A stretch of 42,574 bases of DNA, taken from Candidatus Gottesmanbacteria bacterium RIFCSPHIGHO2_01_FULL_46_14 (lineage in GTDB: Bacteria > Patescibacteriota > Microgenomatia > UBA10105 > UBA927). Positions 4,417 to 23,675 of the stretch are shown in pieces (the first letter of the stretch is position 1; each line of letters opens with the position of its first letter). The stretch is from positions 1 through 42,574 of the forward strand of contig MFJJ01000048.1 in assembly GCA_001780895.1 (NCBI GenBank), written 5' to 3'. A model generated the notes under the pieces. That model was given only the letters and a program-made list of their open reading frames with translations. It searched no databases and was not told where the DNA came from. Both the position numbers and the translations under genes were made by a program.

Positions 4417-4777
4417 TGTCATTCCGGGCTTGACCCGGAATCCAGTGTTCATGGTAAGACACTATTTTGTTTATATCCTTGCGAGCAAAAGAAGCGGTAC
4501 ATTATATATTGGAATCACCAATCGCATTACCAGACGCACGTTGGAGCATAAGCTGAATATAGTCGAAGGATTTACAAAGAAATATCAAGTTCACTCGTTG
4601 GTATATTACGAAATATATACGGATGTTAAGGAGGCTATTAAAAGAGAAAAACAGTTAAAATGGTGGAGACGTGACTGGAAAATAAAATTGATAGAAACGG
4701 AAAATCCAAAATGGGAAGATCTCTATAAAAAAATCATTTTCTAAGAACTGGATCCCGGCTCGATGGCCGGGATGACA
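4417..4777. mobile_element. Candidate autonomous element: GIY-YIG gene bracketed by oppositely oriented palindromic termini
   Basis: Left TGTCATTCCGGGCTTGACCCGGAATCCAGT; right ACTGGATCCCGGCTCGATGGCCGGGATGACA. The right end's reverse complement aligns with the left end. Sits between lemA and htpX. Confidence 0.7.
4451..4744 (+). CDS. GIY-YIG nuclease superfamily protein (URI/YhbQ-like)
   Basis: MVRHYFVYILASKRSGTLYIGITNRITRRTLEHK...FTKKYQVHSLVYYE..AIKREKQLKWWRRDWKIKLIE..NP.W.DL. ATG at 4451 follows the left repeat. Confidence 0.92.
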   Translation: MVRHYFVYILASKRSGTLYIGITNRITRRTLEHKLNIVEGFTKKYQVHSLVYYEIYTDVKEAIKREKQLKWWRRDWKIKLIETENPKWEDLYKKIIF

Positions 4778-5688: not shown

Positions 5689-6948
5689 ATGCTCCATATT
5701 GCGATCCTTCTCGGTAAATTAGTCTCCTGGGCAAGTAAAACATTTGGACTTGGTGCCGGGGCGACGTGGCCGGGGGAGATTGCTCTTCGACTAAACCCCA
5801 CTATTCTTTCTTCTCTCGCTTGCAACCTTAAGAAAGGCGTCATTCTCGTTGCCGGTACTAACGGTAAAACCACCACAAGTAAAATGATTCAAATCATTTT
5901 AGAACAAAATGGATTGTCGGTCGTTCATAATTCCAGTGGCGCAAATCTCGACAATGGGATTGTTTCAGCATTGATTGGTAAGTCAAATGCGGATTGGGGT
6001 GTGTTTGAGGTCGATGAGAATACGCTGCCCAGTGTTATTTCTGTATTGTCATTCCGGCCGAAGAGCCGGAATCCAGAAAAAAAACAATGGATCCCGGATC
6101 AAGTCCGGGATGACAAAAGAACAATCATCGTGCTTCTCAATATCTTTCGCGATCAGCTGGATCGGTACGGAGAAGTTGATGTGATTGCGCAGAAGTGGGA
6201 AAAAGCGCTCCGGGGAAGCAAAGCCACGATTATAGCAAATGCGGATGATCCCCTCATTGCACACCTGGGATTATTCGCGAAGGCAACGTTTTTTGGTATT
6301 AACGACAAGACGAAATTTTTTACCACGATGGAACACGCAACAGATTCGACGTTCTGTTTAAACTGTGGCAGTCGTTTGAAGTATGAAGGCATCTATTTTT
6401 CCCATCTCGGCATCTGGGAATGTACAAAGTGCAGAGAGAAACGACCCAAACCGAATATTTCCGACGGGAAATCTCCATTACCCGGGCTTTACAATCTCTA
6501 CAACACTCTGGCGGCGATGAGCGTTGCAAAAATACTCGGCATAAAGGCAGACTTGGCAGGGTTCCACCCTGCATTCGGGAGACAGGAAGAAGTCGGCAAT
6601 GTGAAGATTTTTCTCTCCAAAAATCCTGCTGGTTTTAATCAATCGCTTCGAACGGTTCTCGAGCTCGGAGCAAAAAATCTCCTTTTCGTATTAAACGATC
6701 GTATTCCCGACGGCCGCGACGTTTCCTGGATCTGGGACGTGGATTTTGAAATGATCCCGAAAGATGTATCGGTACGGGTGAGCGGGGATCGTGTCTATGA
6801 TCTTGCGTTACGACTTAAATATGCAGGTATCAAGGCGGACATATATGAAAATCTAGAGGATGCGCTATCTGGTCCACTGTACGTGTTACCAACGTACTCG
6901 GCAATGCTTGAAGTCCGAAAAATTCTGAAAGGTCGGAAGATACTATGA
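5689..6948 (+). CDS. murT: Mur ligase family, lipid II isoglutaminyl synthase subunit MurT
   Basis: VAGTNGKTTTSKMI P-loop, FEVDENTLP, NIFRDQLDRYGE, cysteine zinc cluster CLNCGSRL..CTKC, PAFGRQE..KNPAGFNQ; adjacent gatD. Confidence 0.92.
   Translation: MLHIAILLGKLVSWASKTFGLGAGATWPGEIALRLNPTILSSLACNLKKGVILVAGTNGKTTTSKMIQIILEQNGLSVVHNSSGANLDNGIVSALIGKSNADWGVFEVDENTLPSVISVLSFRPKSRNPEKKQWIPDQVRDDKRTIIVLLNIFRDQLDRYGEVDVIAQKWEKALRGSKATIIANADDPLIAHLGLFAKATFFGINDKTKFFTTMEHATDSTFCLNCGSRLKYEGIYFSHLGIWECTKCREKRPKPNISDGKSPLPGLYNLYNTLAAMSVAKILGIKADLAGFHPAFGRQEEVGNVKIFLSKNPAGFNQSLRTVLELGAKNLLFVLNDRIPDGRDVSWIWDVDFEMIPKDVSVRVSGDRVYDLALRLKYAGIKADIYENLEDALSGPLYVLPTYSAMLEVRKILKGRKIL
6047..6115. repeat. Palindromic element copy 2 (69 bp), in frame inside murT
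   Basis: TGTCATTCCGGCCGAAGAGCCGGAATCCAG-AAAAAAAACAA-TGGATCCCGGATCAAGTCCGGGATGACA; two inverted imperfect palindromes. Confidence 0.88.
6555..6571. repeat. GGCAGGGTTCCACCCTG palindrome inside murT, identical to the RAYT-associated repeat
   Basis: 17-bp identity with 11620-11636 and 11799-11815. Confidence 0.6.
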
Positions 6949-7670
6949 AATTAACAATCGCCTGGCTTTACCCAGATTTAATGTCGACCTATGGAGATCG
7001 TGGAAATATTATCGTTCTCACCAAACGCTGTCAGTGGCGAGGGATAGATGTAGGAGTAAAGGAAATTACACTTGAAACGTCAGTTTCTGAGTTAAAGAAA
7101 AGTGACTTGATTTTCATGGGAGGGGCGCAGGATCGACAACAAAAATTAGCTGGCACTGATTTTCTCAAGCATAAAGGTCCTTTCGTAAAAGAAATGGTGG
7201 AAAAAGGGATCCCGGCGCTATTTGTCTGCGCTGCCTATCAATTCGTCGGCCATTATTACAAGCCCTATCAAGGCGATCCGATTCCGGGTGCTGGGATTTT
7301 TGATCTCTATACCGAGCATCCGAGCGATCAAGCCAAACGCTTGATCGGCAATGTCGTAGCAGAAGTTATCAGTTCAAAAAAGACGATCGTCGGGTTTGAA
7401 AATCACGGAGGCAGGACGTATTTAGGAAAAAATCTTGCCCCGTTTGCCAAAGTCATCAAGGGTTTTGGCAATAATGGTGAGGATGGCTACGAGGGAGCAG
7501 TGTACAAAAACGCCATCGGCAGCTACTTCCACGGCCCGCTCCTTCCTAAAAATCCGCACGTTGCCGATTGGCTCATAGCCAAAGCGCTTGAGGAAAAATA
7601 CGGGAAAAAAATCAAGCTTGTGGAATCAGACGATACACTCGAGTGGCACGCGCATCGTTTTGCGCTATAA
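6945..7670 (+). CDS. gatD: Lipid II isoglutaminyl synthase glutaminase subunit GatD (CobB/CobQ-like amidotransferase)
   Basis: LYPDLMSTYGDRGNI, MGGAQDRQQ, VCAAYQFVGHYY, GFENHGGRTYLG, SYFHGPLLPKNP. Confidence 0.93.
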   Translation: MKLTIAWLYPDLMSTYGDRGNIIVLTKRCQWRGIDVGVKEITLETSVSELKKSDLIFMGGAQDRQQKLAGTDFLKHKGPFVKEMVEKGIPALFVCAAYQFVGHYYKPYQGDPIPGAGIFDLYTEHPSDQAKRLIGNVVAEVISSKKTIVGFENHGGRTYLGKNLAPFAKVIKGFGNNGEDGYEGAVYKNAIGSYFHGPLLPKNPHVADWLIAKALEEKYGKKIKLVESDDTLEWHAHRFAL

Positions 7671-7993: not shown

Positions 7994-8064
7994 TGTCATC
8001 CCGGCCACCGAGCCGGGATCCAGGGCAGAAAGTGCATGGATTCCGGGTCAAGCCCGGAATGACA
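7994..8064. repeat. Palindromic element copy 3 (71 bp), gatC-gatA intergenic
   Basis: TGTCATCCCGGCCACCGAGCCGGGATCCAG...TGGATTCCGGGTCAAGCCCGGAATGACA. Confidence 0.88.
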
Positions 8065-10782: not shown

Positions 10783-11025
10783 ATGACTAGTGGTGAAAGT
10801 TTAGCAGAGAGTCTTCTGAAGGCTTACGGACAAGTGATATATGTTGAAGGTTTAGGCCAAGATTTTGAAGCAAGAGGAGCAGGTACTGATGGATTTACAC
10901 TTTTACATAAACGTTGCTGGAGAGTGGTAGGGCGTTTTGGAGAACAAGCGCAATCTGATGCAATAGCTGCTGCGCAAAAGGGTCACGAGTGTCCAGCACT
11001 AAGCAGCGGAGCAGGAGTTGAATAA
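10783..11025 (+). CDS. Hypothetical small protein
   Basis: ATG at 10783 with GGAGG about 8 nt upstream; its stop overlaps the ATG of the dnaE remnant (TAATG). Confidence 0.55.
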   Translation: MTSGESLAESLLKAYGQVIYVEGLGQDFEARGAGTDGFTLLHKRCWRVVGRFGEQAQSDAIAAAQKGHECPALSSGAGVE

Positions 11026-11111
11026 TGTCAGATTTTGTCCACCTTCATACGCATAGCGAGTATTCCCTGCTTGACTCCGTGTCAGGGTTCCACCCTGCCA
11101 TAGGAGCGTAA
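11025..11111 (+). pseudogene. Remnant of a dnaE 5' end, truncated at a palindromic repeat
   Basis: Encodes MSDFVHLHTHSEYSLLD then SVSGFHPAIGA*; intact dnaE at 11852 begins MADFVHLHTHSEYSLLD. Confidence 0.85.
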
Positions 11112-11783
11112 CAAGGCGCTAGCTTTTTGTACACGCTCTTCAACTTCATCTTCTTCATTTTCCGGTTCAAGAGTGATAAAGGAGAAATCAGATGGAGTTT
11201 CCTCCTTAGTATTGTCAACAAATTCCTGATAATTTTTTTCGCGACTCATACGTTTGCTTTCGAAAAATTCAAGTAGGAGATGAGTATCTAGCCAGTCGGT
11301 TTTGCGTTTACTAAGATAGTCATAATAGCTGCTGTAAGGGTACGTTTGAAAATCAGGAGGGTTTCGATGGATGTAACGCGAAACCCAAAGCAAATACTTT
11401 TCATCCCTAATATCAGTTGCTTTAAAAACGCCCTGGAACAAGGAGCCCACGCGCCGGTATTTTTTATTGAAATACATGGAATACGAAGTTGACAGTGAAC
11501 GGATAAATTCTGTCAATCCGGAAATAGTTTTTTGGCGCAAGAGAAGATGGTAATGATTAGGCATGAGGCAATAGGCCATTAAATCTATTTTGTCATGGAA
11601 TTTTTTCCGCCTGTTCCGTGGCAGGGTTCCACCCTGTATGGGAGAAAGAGCAGTTTTTAAGAAGTGGAAGAAAGCAAGATGGTCGTCTCGATCGAGAAAA
11701 ATGTTTCGTTTTTCCACACCCCGGTTGTATACATGATAAAATGCATTTTCGTAGTAAATTTTTCTCGAGTTTTTCTGCGGCAT
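11082..11783 (-). CDS. REP-associated tyrosine (Y1_Tnp / RAYT-like) transposase
   Basis: MPQKNSRKIYYENAFYHVYNRGVEKRNIFLDRDDHLAFFHFL...IDLMAYCLMPNHYHLLL (HUH-type)...SYSMYFNKKYRRVGSLFQGVFKATDI; Tyr region RYIHRNPP. Confidence 0.93.
   Translation of the reverse strand: MPQKNSRKIYYENAFYHVYNRGVEKRNIFLDRDDHLAFFHFLKTALSPIQGGTLPRNRRKKFHDKIDLMAYCLMPNHYHLLLRQKTISGLTEFIRSLSTSYSMYFNKKYRRVGSLFQGVFKATDIRDEKYLLWVSRYIHRNPPDFQTYPYSSYYDYLSKRKTDWLDTHLLLEFFESKRMSREKNYQEFVDNTKEETPSDFSFITLEPENEEDEVEERVQKASALLRSYGRVEP
11620..11636. repeat. Internal GGCAGGGTTCCACCCTG palindrome inside the transposase CDS
   Basis: Identical 17-mer to 11799-11815 and 6555-6571. Confidence 0.85.
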
Positions 11784-11851
11784 GCATGTAGCGTACATGG
11801 CAGGGTTCCACCCTGTCAAACTTTGCGTTATACTTAAGCAGACCTAATTCT

Positions 11852-14800
11852 ATGGCTGATTTTGTCCACCTACATACCCACAGCGAGTATTCGCTGCTCG
11901 ATGGTTTGGGGAAGCTTGATAAACTCATTGATCGGGCAAAGTCCTTTGATATGGACGCGCTTGCCATCACCGATCACGGAGCCATGTACGGGAGTTTTAA
12001 GTTTTATTTGAAAGCGATTGCAGCCGGAATAAAACCTATTATCGGTGTGGAGACCTACGTTGCCAAACGGAGTAGATTCGACAAAGAAGCAAAAGTAGAT
12101 ACGGATCCCTACCATCTCGTACTACTTGCTAAAAATGAAGTGGGCTATAAGAATCTCATGAAGCTCGTGACGCATGCGCACCTGGAAGGTTATTACTACC
12201 GCCCGCGGATTGATTGGGAACTCTTGCAGCAGCATGCAGACGGGCTCATTTGTCTTTCCGCGTGTCTCCAAGGCCAGGTGTCGAACCTGTTGCGCAATAA
12301 TCAGGACAACGAAGCCGAAACAGTGGCGCGTCAGTATGCCCAGCTTTTTGGTCCGGATCATTATTATATTGAACTTCAGCGCCATCCGGCAATTGCCGAT
12401 TGTGACGTCGTCAACGAAAAGCTCGTGGCGCTTGCCCGCAAACTGGGACTCCCGCTGGTTGCAACCAACGATATTCATTATGTGGATGCTGATGATGCCG
12501 AAGCGCAGGAAATTTTGTTGTGTGTTCAAACCCAGCACACCATACTCGAGAAAAACCGGCCACTTACGATGATTGATTCCCCGGATTTTTATATGCGCTC
12601 TCCCCGGGAGATGCAGGAATTATTTGTTCAATACCCCGAGGCCATAGAAAACACGGTTAAAATTGCCGCGATGTGTAATCTCACGCTCTCGGTAGGTAAA
12701 TGGATTCTTCCCAACTATCCATTGGAAGCCGGCGTCACCCCGGAAGCGTACCTCAAAAAATTGGTGGAAGAGCGAACTCCTGCTCGATACAAAAAACTCG
12801 ATGATGAGGCTGAAAAACGGATTGCCTATGAACTCGATATTATTTGTACCAAAGGGTATGCCACCTATTTTTTGATAGTACAGGATTTTGTCAACTGGGC
12901 CAAGAGTCAGGGTATTTCGGTGGGGCCCGGGCGGGGATCGGCAGCCGGATCGATGGTGACGTATATTCTGGGAATAACCGGTCTTGATCCGCTCTACTTT
13001 AATCTTCCGTTTGAGCGATTTTTAAACCCCTTCCGGCCCTCTGCGCCTGATATAGATCTCGATTTTGCCGATGACAGGAGAGACGAAGTCATCGCCTATG
13101 TGACGAAGCGGTTCGGAGAGGATAAAGTGGCCCAGATCGTCACGTTTGGAACGATGGAGGCCCGCGGCGCCGTCCGCGACGCTGGTCGGGCTCTCGGTAT
13201 GCCCTATGCTGCTCCTGATCGCATTTCCAAAATGATTCCGCCGGGGTTTCAGGGAGGCGCGATGACGATAGAAAAAGCACTGGACCAATCGCCGGAACTT
13301 GCCCGTGCATATCAAACCGAACCCGAGACCAAGCGACTTCTCGACGTCGCGACGAAACTCGAAGGTGTTGCGCGCCACTCATCGGTGCATGCGGCAGGTG
13401 TCGTTATTGCAGATAAGCCCCTTGTTGAATACACACCGCTTCAGCGGGAGTCCAAAGGAGACCGGATTGTTACCCAATATGACATGTACACCGTCGGAGA
13501 AGACGGCGTGGGGCTTCTCAAAATGGACTTTTTGGGACTACGCAATTTGACGATCATGTCCCAGGCGCTTGCTTTTATTAAAAAAGTCAGAGGAGTTACC
13601 ATTGATCTCGATACTATTGCCCTCGACGACAAAAAAACATACGAACTCCTGAGCAGTGGGGAAACCACGGGGATATTTCAGCTTGAATCAAGCGGGATGC
13701 GCCGGTATATAAAGGATCTTCGGCCGACCTCGATTTTTGATGTCATGGCGATGGTTGCATTATTTCGACCAGGTCCCATGCAGGTTATTCCTGAGTTTAT
13801 ACGGCGAAAACAGAATCCTGAATACGTCACCTATCCCGATCCGAGGCTTAAAGATGTCCTCAGGCAATCCTACGGCATCATCTGTTATCAAGACGATGTG
13901 CTTTTAACCGCGATTACCGTGGCCGGCTATTCATGGGGGGATGCCGATAAACTTCGAAAAGCAGTCGGCAAAAAAATTCCGTCGGAAATGAAAAAGCAAA
14001 AAGAGAAATTTATTGACGGATGCGTCAAAAACGGGCTCACCAAATCTAAGGCAGAACACCTATTCACACTTATTGAGCCGTTTGCCGGGTACGGATTTAA
14101 TAAAGCTCATGCCGCCTGTTATGCGATGATTGCCTATCAGACGGGATATCTCAAAGCCAACTTTCAAGTGGAGTTTATGACCGCAGTACTGGCGGCTGAA
14201 TCCCGCTCCAATACCGGGACGGCACGTGACGAAAAGATCGGCGCAATCGTTAACGAGTGTCGCCGTATAAACCTGACGCTCCTTCCTCCGGATATCAACC
14301 GCTCCGGCGTTGAGTTTGAAATTGAAGCAGGCGCAATTCGTTTTGGACTGTCGGCGATTAAAAATGTCGGAACAAGCGCCATTGAAAGTATTATCGCTGC
14401 CCGCCAAAGTGGCGGGTTTACGAGTTTGTCCGACGTCATCAATCGTGTTGATATATCAAAGGCAAATCGAAAAACATTTGAAAGCATGATTAAGGCAGGT
14501 GCATTTGATCAGTTCGGCAATCGCGCCTCCCAACTTGCGGCTCTGCCTACCATGCTCGAACAAATTCATAAGCTCCGCAGGTCAACGGCAGCGGGGCAAG
14601 TAGGGTTATTTGACGGGAGCGGCGAGCAATCCGTATTTGAGAACCCCTTACCAAATATCGAGGAATTGTCTCCCGGGGAGCGTTTATCCTTTGAAAAAGA
14701 ACTCCTTGGATTTTATTTGACCGCCCATCCTCTCCAGCCGGTGCTGGATCAACTTGATCGACTCAACGCAACCAAAATCGAGCACATCACAAAAGATCGG

Positions 14801-22018: not shown

Positions 22019-22138
22019 ATGAACGTCACTGTTGTCCATCATCCCCTCATCGATCACTCGCTGACGGTTATCCGGCGGAAGGAGACAACCACTGAGGAGT
22101 TTCGTCGGCACGCGGGGTCGTTCCTTTTTGAGAGCTAA
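22019..22138 (+). pseudogene. Remnant of an upp 5' end (39 codons then stop)
   Basis: [39 protein letters not shown] versus intact upp [39 protein letters not shown]. Too short for the ORF track. Confidence 0.88.
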
Positions 22139-23055: not shown

Positions 23056-23675
23056 AAAACGTTATTGAAGTTCATCATCCTCTCATTGACCACTCACTGA
23101 CGGTCATCCGTCGGAAAGACACAGGGACCGAGGAGTTTCGGCGGCATGCGGGGATAGTGTCAAGGATTCTTTTGGTTGAGGTGATGAAGGATCTTGCTAC
23201 AGCACGTGTGAAGATTGAGACCCCGCTTGCTCCCATGACGGGCAAAAAACTCAAAGACGAAGTCGTTGTCGTGCCGGTGTTGCGGGCAGGGCTAGCGATG
23301 CTCTTTGCCATCCAGGATTTTTTGCCCGCGGTATCCGTCGGGTTTGTGGGTCTGGAACGCGATGAGCAGACTGCCCAGGCGCGGGAGTACTACCGCAAGC
23401 TTCCCAAGCTTTTAGCTTCTCATCACGTGCTCGTCATCGACCCCATGCTGGCAACTGGCGGCTCGTTTGATGATACGGTAACGCTTCTCAAGGAAAAAGG
23501 CGCCAAACGCATTACCATCGTCAGTATCGTATCCGCTCCGGAGGGCATCATACGGGTGCAACGTAATCATCCGGAAGTAAAAATATTTACCGCTGCAATA
23601 GATGACCATCTCAACGACAAAAAATTTATCGTACCTGGACTAGGAGATTTCGGAGATCGGTATTTTGGAACATAA
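23052..23675 (+). CDS. upp: Uracil phosphoribosyltransferase
   Basis: VVVVPVLRAGLAMLFAIQDFLP, VLVIDPMLATGGSFDDTVTLLKEKGAKRI, PGLGDFGDRYFGT. Confidence 0.97.
   Translation: MKNVIEVHHPLIDHSLTVIRRKDTGTEEFRRHAGIVSRILLVEVMKDLATARVKIETPLAPMTGKKLKDEVVVVPVLRAGLAMLFAIQDFLPAVSVGFVGLERDEQTAQAREYYRKLPKLLASHHVLVIDPMLATGGSFDDTVTLLKEKGAKRITIVSIVSAPEGIIRVQRNHPEVKIFTAAIDDHLNDKKFIVPGLGDFGDRYFGT

Follow-up and report, generated by a model that had tools for sequence, protein, structure and literature searches.

Here, we report that the murT gene of a Gottesmanbacteria genome carries, in frame, a 69-bp palindromic element that is probably a solo copy, lacking the nuclease, of a mobile GIY-YIG palindromic element whose arms start with TGTCAT. 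Directly observed are the in-frame insertion, the many copies of the element, the varied arm families at the murT site, a nuclease gene between arms, and one intermediate. The window, the whole 42,574-nucleotide stretch that was analyzed, corresponds to contig C48 in a draft genome of 63 contigs and 0.94 Mb. The original prediction had described the insertion in murT; the GIY-YIG element 1.3 kb away, the murT insertion hotspot, and the dozens of genomic copies go beyond it.

The host gene (positions 5689 to 6948, plus strand; 419 amino acids including the insert) was identified as murT, encoding a subunit of lipid II isoglutaminyl synthase, by a Pfam MurT_C match (5.7e-29) and PDB matches to MurT (7q8e, 6gs2, and 6fqb). 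Its product combines a Mur ligase middle domain with MurT_C, and gatD (6945 to 7670, plus strand; family match), which encodes the partner subunit, overlaps its end. The element (6047 to 6115, plus strand; TGTCAT/ATGACA termini) comprises 23 codons without a stop, and the open reading frame (ORF) stays open across it, as originally predicted. That murT is a pseudogene or the insert an assembly artefact is hardly credible: the window is one contig of a draft genome, but the frame is intact on both sides of the insert, with conserved motifs and an overlapping gatD, and independent assemblies hold other palindromes at the same MurT site. A second murT, to be expected if this one were a pseudogene, was not found in the window genome (90% complete). 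We assume murT to be essential in the source organism.

Alignment to S. aureus MurT moved from query residue 118 to 145 while the template advanced from 119 to 124, and the insert comes after the helix that follows the FEVDEN motif and before the strand leading into NIFRDQLDRYGE. Most MurT relatives lack the segment, their DEN(S/T)LP helix running directly into IVLLNLFRDQLDRYGE, so that homologs differ in length here. The element itself comprises 23 codons; the net gain in the protein is about 16 to 23 residues and varies with the homolog compared, as the length of this site differs even where no palindrome is present. A surface loop is plausible, since seven insertions in the order (see below) converge on two sites beside secondary-structure elements; a single-sequence AlphaFold model of MurT (no alignment) had a pLDDT of 44, too low to bear on the loop. 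An intron or intein was set aside (69 bp, no domain), and viral contigs yielded no MurT relatives.

The 69-bp sequence (TGTCATTCCGGCCGAAGAGCCGGAATCCAGAAAAAAAACAATGGATCCCGGATCAAGTCCGGGATGACA) forms two adjacent hairpins in inverted orientation, TGTCAT-TCCGGC..GCCGGA-ATCC and GGATCCCGGA..TCCGGGATGACA, with a short A-rich spacer between them. The left hairpin, or TTCC arm (6052 to 6071), pairs TTCCGGC (6052 to 6058) with GCCGGAA (6065 to 6071), as judged from sequence, fold, and arm covariation in 22 copies; the right hairpin, or TCCC arm (6091 to 6111), pairs ATCCCGGA (6091 to 6098) with TCCGGGAT (6104 to 6111), as judged from sequence, fold, and copy comparison. The variable spacer (6077 to 6087) is the position at which full-length elements hold the GIY-YIG ORF. 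Folded as single-stranded DNA, the element reached −17.2 kcal/mol, against −7.0 ± 1.9 kcal/mol for shuffles (z = −5.5), and none of 200 shuffles folded as well. Its reading in the murT frame is L-SFRPKSRNPEKKQWIPDQVRDDK.

The palindrome is not a chance structure, because the same genome holds 14 matches to it at E ≤ 1e-3 and 32 solo copies of the pattern TGTCATYS-N30-60-SRATGACA, compared with 0 for the reversed control pattern (a pattern search alone, by which decayed copies are missed). A second solo copy in the window (7994 to 8064, plus strand; 71 bp) is intergenic. In the 22 copies of exactly 71 bp, arm A was 87%, arm B 96%, and the 12-nucleotide spacer 41% identical between copies, and the spacer had diverged in sequence at constant length, a combination that simple neutral decay of old copies does not explain. 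Every one of these copies has one TTCC and one TCCC arm (18 in one orientation, 4 in the other), and arm differences among them are matched by a paired change on the opposite side of the same hairpin; each arm is thus conserved as a hairpin of its own. The flanks of solo copies are T-rich on the left and A-rich on the right. Direct flanking repeats of at least 2 bp were present at 0 of the 32 copies, i.e., target-site duplication is absent, and a miniature inverted-repeat element (MITE) derived from a DDE insertion sequence was rejected on this ground.

For 14 of the 32 copies, a long ORF reads straight through in frame; many of the genes concerned look indispensable. They are murT, tsaD, an M24 peptidase, an RluA-family pseudouridine synthase, ychF, tgt, glmS, radA, an EpmA/LysS-like gene, two family-2 glycosyltransferases (GT2), a probable GT4, a DUF3105 gene, and a membrane protein. 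TsaD, YchF, Tgt, GlmS, RadA, EpmA, and the RluA subfamily passed curated NCBIfam cutoffs, and Pfam agreed where run; the labels GT2 for L271, GT4 for L276, and membrane protein for L038 were read from sequence (no family match). Host ORFs in relatives, likewise named from sequence, are PheS-like and LepA-like (twice) in G011 and PheT-like in G024.

A full-length element of the same arm family as the murT insert (TGTCATTCCGGGCTTGACCCGGAATCCAG ... CTGGATCCCGGCTCGATGGCCGGGATGACA) lies 1.3 kb upstream of it (4417 to 4777, plus strand). Between its arms is a 97-amino-acid GIY-YIG endonuclease ORF (4451 to 4744, plus strand; Pfam PF01541, 4.6e-14), assigned to the superfamily by its domain and its conserved Tyr, Tyr, Arg, Glu, and Asn; residues Y8, Y19, R29, H33, E66, and N85 are invariant in 19 homologs, and the protein has no evident separate DNA-binding domain. 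The genome contains two further loaded elements. L051 holds a second GIY-YIG gene inside GCGAG arms, and L052 holds one cut to its last 32 codons between intact CCCGCG arms, a decayed, half-deleted intermediate that suggests a derivation of short elements by internal deletion. Three distant GIY-YIG genes in the same genome have no such arms.

Among 59 related Patescibacteria genomes, the ORF of 17 of 20 close homologs of the nuclease was preceded by GTCAT and followed by ATGAC within 120 bp, an arrangement shown by none of 14 distant GIY-YIGs and none of 46 control ORFs. All 11 further close GIY-YIG loci had both arms (28/31 for Patescibacteria in total), and at L296 a frameshifted GIY-YIG gene still sits between arms. 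In other bacteria (GTDB scan; 73 loci after taking out seven already counted), both arms were found within 150 bp at 37 loci and one arm at 22; the rates for both arms were 4 of 143 among control ORFs and 1.6% for random placements (Fisher, 6e-17). These arm-enclosed loci include Alpha- and Gammaproteobacteria, Bacteroidetes, Clostridia, Chloroflexi, and Calditrichaeota, and inverted arms exceeded the 99% shuffle level at 45 of 80 loci. A null built from the mixed flanks of different GIY-YIG loci was dropped in favor of the control ORFs and random placements because unrelated loci have TGTCATTGCGAG arms in common. Genome G031 holds three GIY-YIG-bearing palindromic elements (L308 to L310) set among further palindromes, possibly an active family; L309 and L310 share 94% identity over 483 bp, a similarity consistent with recent multiplication.

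The number of solo elements followed the presence of the nuclease. Genomes with a close GIY-YIG (n = 19) held a mean of 6.2 solo elements (at least one in 16/19), and those in which none was detected (n = 40; some assemblies incomplete) a mean of 0.58 (at least one in 11/40; Mann-Whitney p = 1e-6, or 3e-6 minus the window genome, both ignoring shared ancestry). Arm families of loaded and solo elements in the same genome matched weakly (permutation p = 0.04 across 16 genomes, with incomplete sampling of solos); in G016, the murT insert is of CCGG type and the GIY-YIG element of GCGAG type.

It is possible, but rather unlikely, that the palindromes are moved by another enzyme (a RAYT/Y1 transposase) or by host replication slippage, and that the GIY-YIG gene is a passenger for which the palindrome is the homing target. 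Homing endonucleases classically reside inside their own recognition site, solo elements exceed loaded ones 32 to 3 in the window genome, and Y1 transposases occur in 50 of the 59 relatives, with two in the window genome. RAYT number is correlated with solo copies, but less so (rho 0.40) than GIY-YIG (rho 0.62), and the association of GIY-YIG with arms and solo copies is far stronger overall. The RAYTs inspected (G000 included) bear different hairpins of their own (CAGGGTTCCACCCTG; TTTCAAGGCTTAGCCTTGAAA) and 0 of 10 Y1 genes are enclosed by inverted TGTCAT arms, which argues against RAYT as the mobilizer and against classing the elements as REPs or REPINs mobilized by it.

The murT gene was present in all 27 genomes of the order, which together hold seven palindromic insertions, all in frame and at two sites only. 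Site 1 (residue ~121) is occupied by a CCGG-type element in G000, a GCGAG-type element in G005, a CCCGA-type element in G026, and, in another frame, a CCGG-type element in G016; site 2 (residue ~195) is occupied by three further distinct elements in G010, G024, and G026. On the MurT tree, G016, G026, and (for site 2) G010 are separate, and G000 and G005 are sisters, so a single event, with later replacement, may account for the occupied site 1 of these two.

The filling of one MurT site in four genomes by different sequences, all in frame, could also be read as exaptation, with the insert retained because MurT benefits from the extra loop. We regard this as quite improbable, somewhat less so than an artefact or pseudogene: the inserted peptides have no common sequence and use at least two frames (G016 differs), most MurT relatives lack an insert, and the same element sits in at least 13 unrelated genes of the window genome. 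No adaptive benefit is needed, because a tolerant site accounts for the MurT pattern; for MurT the insert most likely makes no difference or carries a slight cost. The hotspot offers a natural experiment that shows where enzymes of essential appearance can take up about 20 random hydrophilic residues. Separately, L003 to L005 and L029, from relatives, have AT-rich tandem repeats at MurT ~121 (AAAATTC, TTTTCAA, AAGTCTAT, and AAGTCTATA), in frame and with no palindrome.

Under the GIY-YIG origin, the nuclease, acting in cis or in trans, would make its cut at the hairpin arms or next to them, after which the element would be copied by repair or replication into T-rich/A-rich sites without target-site duplication. 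Internal deletion of the GIY-YIG ORF would leave short solo elements, related to their parents as REPs and REPINs are to RAYTs, and these may be moved in trans. Selection would remove frame-breaking insertions, and intragenic copies would persist only where the frame is kept and the protein can accommodate about 20 hydrophilic residues. The tolerant spot in MurT would be the joint at which the helix that follows FEVDEN meets the next strand, and the murT copy would have survived because it is in frame there.

Rickettsia palindromic elements (RPEs) and Wolbachia palindromic elements, described by Ogata, Claverie, and colleagues, are short palindromic repeats of several families; RPEs lie in intergenic regions and in frame in conserved genes, where they add a short peptide without stopping the gene (PMC2229807, PMC10969869). 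The parallel with RPEs drawn in the original prediction was borne out by dispersed palindromes in multiple copies and families (32 in the window genome; several arm families in relatives), by in-frame insertion in conserved genes (14/32 copies; seven in murT) whose relatives lack the segment, and by target-site duplication being established in neither RPEs nor our elements. The elements differ in length (~105 to 150 bp in Rickettsia, 53 to 76 bp here), in phylum, and in their TGTCAT arm starts; a full-length form with a nuclease was seen here, as was repeated insertion at a single site within a gene. By this comparison of descriptions, the murT element, whose host is Patescibacteria-like, would be RPE-like but not an RPE.

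The resemblance to REP/REPIN-RAYT systems lies in two inverted hairpins with a spacer, an enzyme gene enclosed by inverted repeat copies, and a copy number that tracks the presence of the enzyme gene (PMC2817692, PMC3116915); the differences are that the enzyme here is a GIY-YIG nuclease and not a Y1/HUH tyrosine transposase, that there is no GTAG head, and that in-frame intragenic copies are frequent. Prokaryotic MITEs are likewise short, non-autonomous inverted-repeat elements derivable by internal deletion (compare L052; PMC10969869), whereas no DDE transposase parent and no target-site duplication were seen here. In rRNA insertions of the candidate phyla radiation (CPR), all GIY-YIG ORFs lie in sequences that match no intron, and short ORF-less insertions are unexplained (PMC11270868); both kinds may be elements of the present type.

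The chances are evenly balanced, in our judgment, that GTCAT-type palindromes in many bacterial phyla are the solo forms of a single class of mobile element that has no transposase and depends for its movement on a GIY-YIG nuclease of about 95 amino acids between two inverted hairpins. If so, the class would be an independent parallel to the RAYT/REP system and would supply the missing mobilizer for RPE-like protein-coding palindromes. How in-frame palindromes such as RPEs spread has been an open question since their discovery, and it becomes testable in the laboratory through a candidate enzyme between arms, a copy number that tracks the enzyme, and a half-deleted intermediate. No paper joining GIY-YIG with RPE- or REP-type palindromes was found in the open-access literature, which leaves most subscription journals outside and priority uncertain.

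Three further features of the window were recorded. A Y1 RAYT-type transposase gene (11082 to 11819, minus strand) is bounded by its own hairpin CAGGGTTCCACCCTG at 11084 to 11098 and 11801 to 11815, with a third copy inside the gene at 11622. It lies between two 50-bp copies of the dnaE start (11025 to 11074 and 11852 to 11901) that are 86% identical to each other, an arrangement (11025 to 11901) that represents an insertion near the dnaE start with the first dnaE codons duplicated. The RAYT hairpin sequence TGGCAGGGTTCCACCCTG also occurs within murT (6554 to 6571), where it encodes the conserved AGFHPA; the sister genome G005 has near-identical bases there (CTGGCAGGGTTCCACCCTGC), and other relatives have F.PAFG and no hairpin. 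Finally, a 96-bp stretch (22022 to 22117) recurs at 23058 to 23153 with 80% identity and looks like a partial gene duplication.
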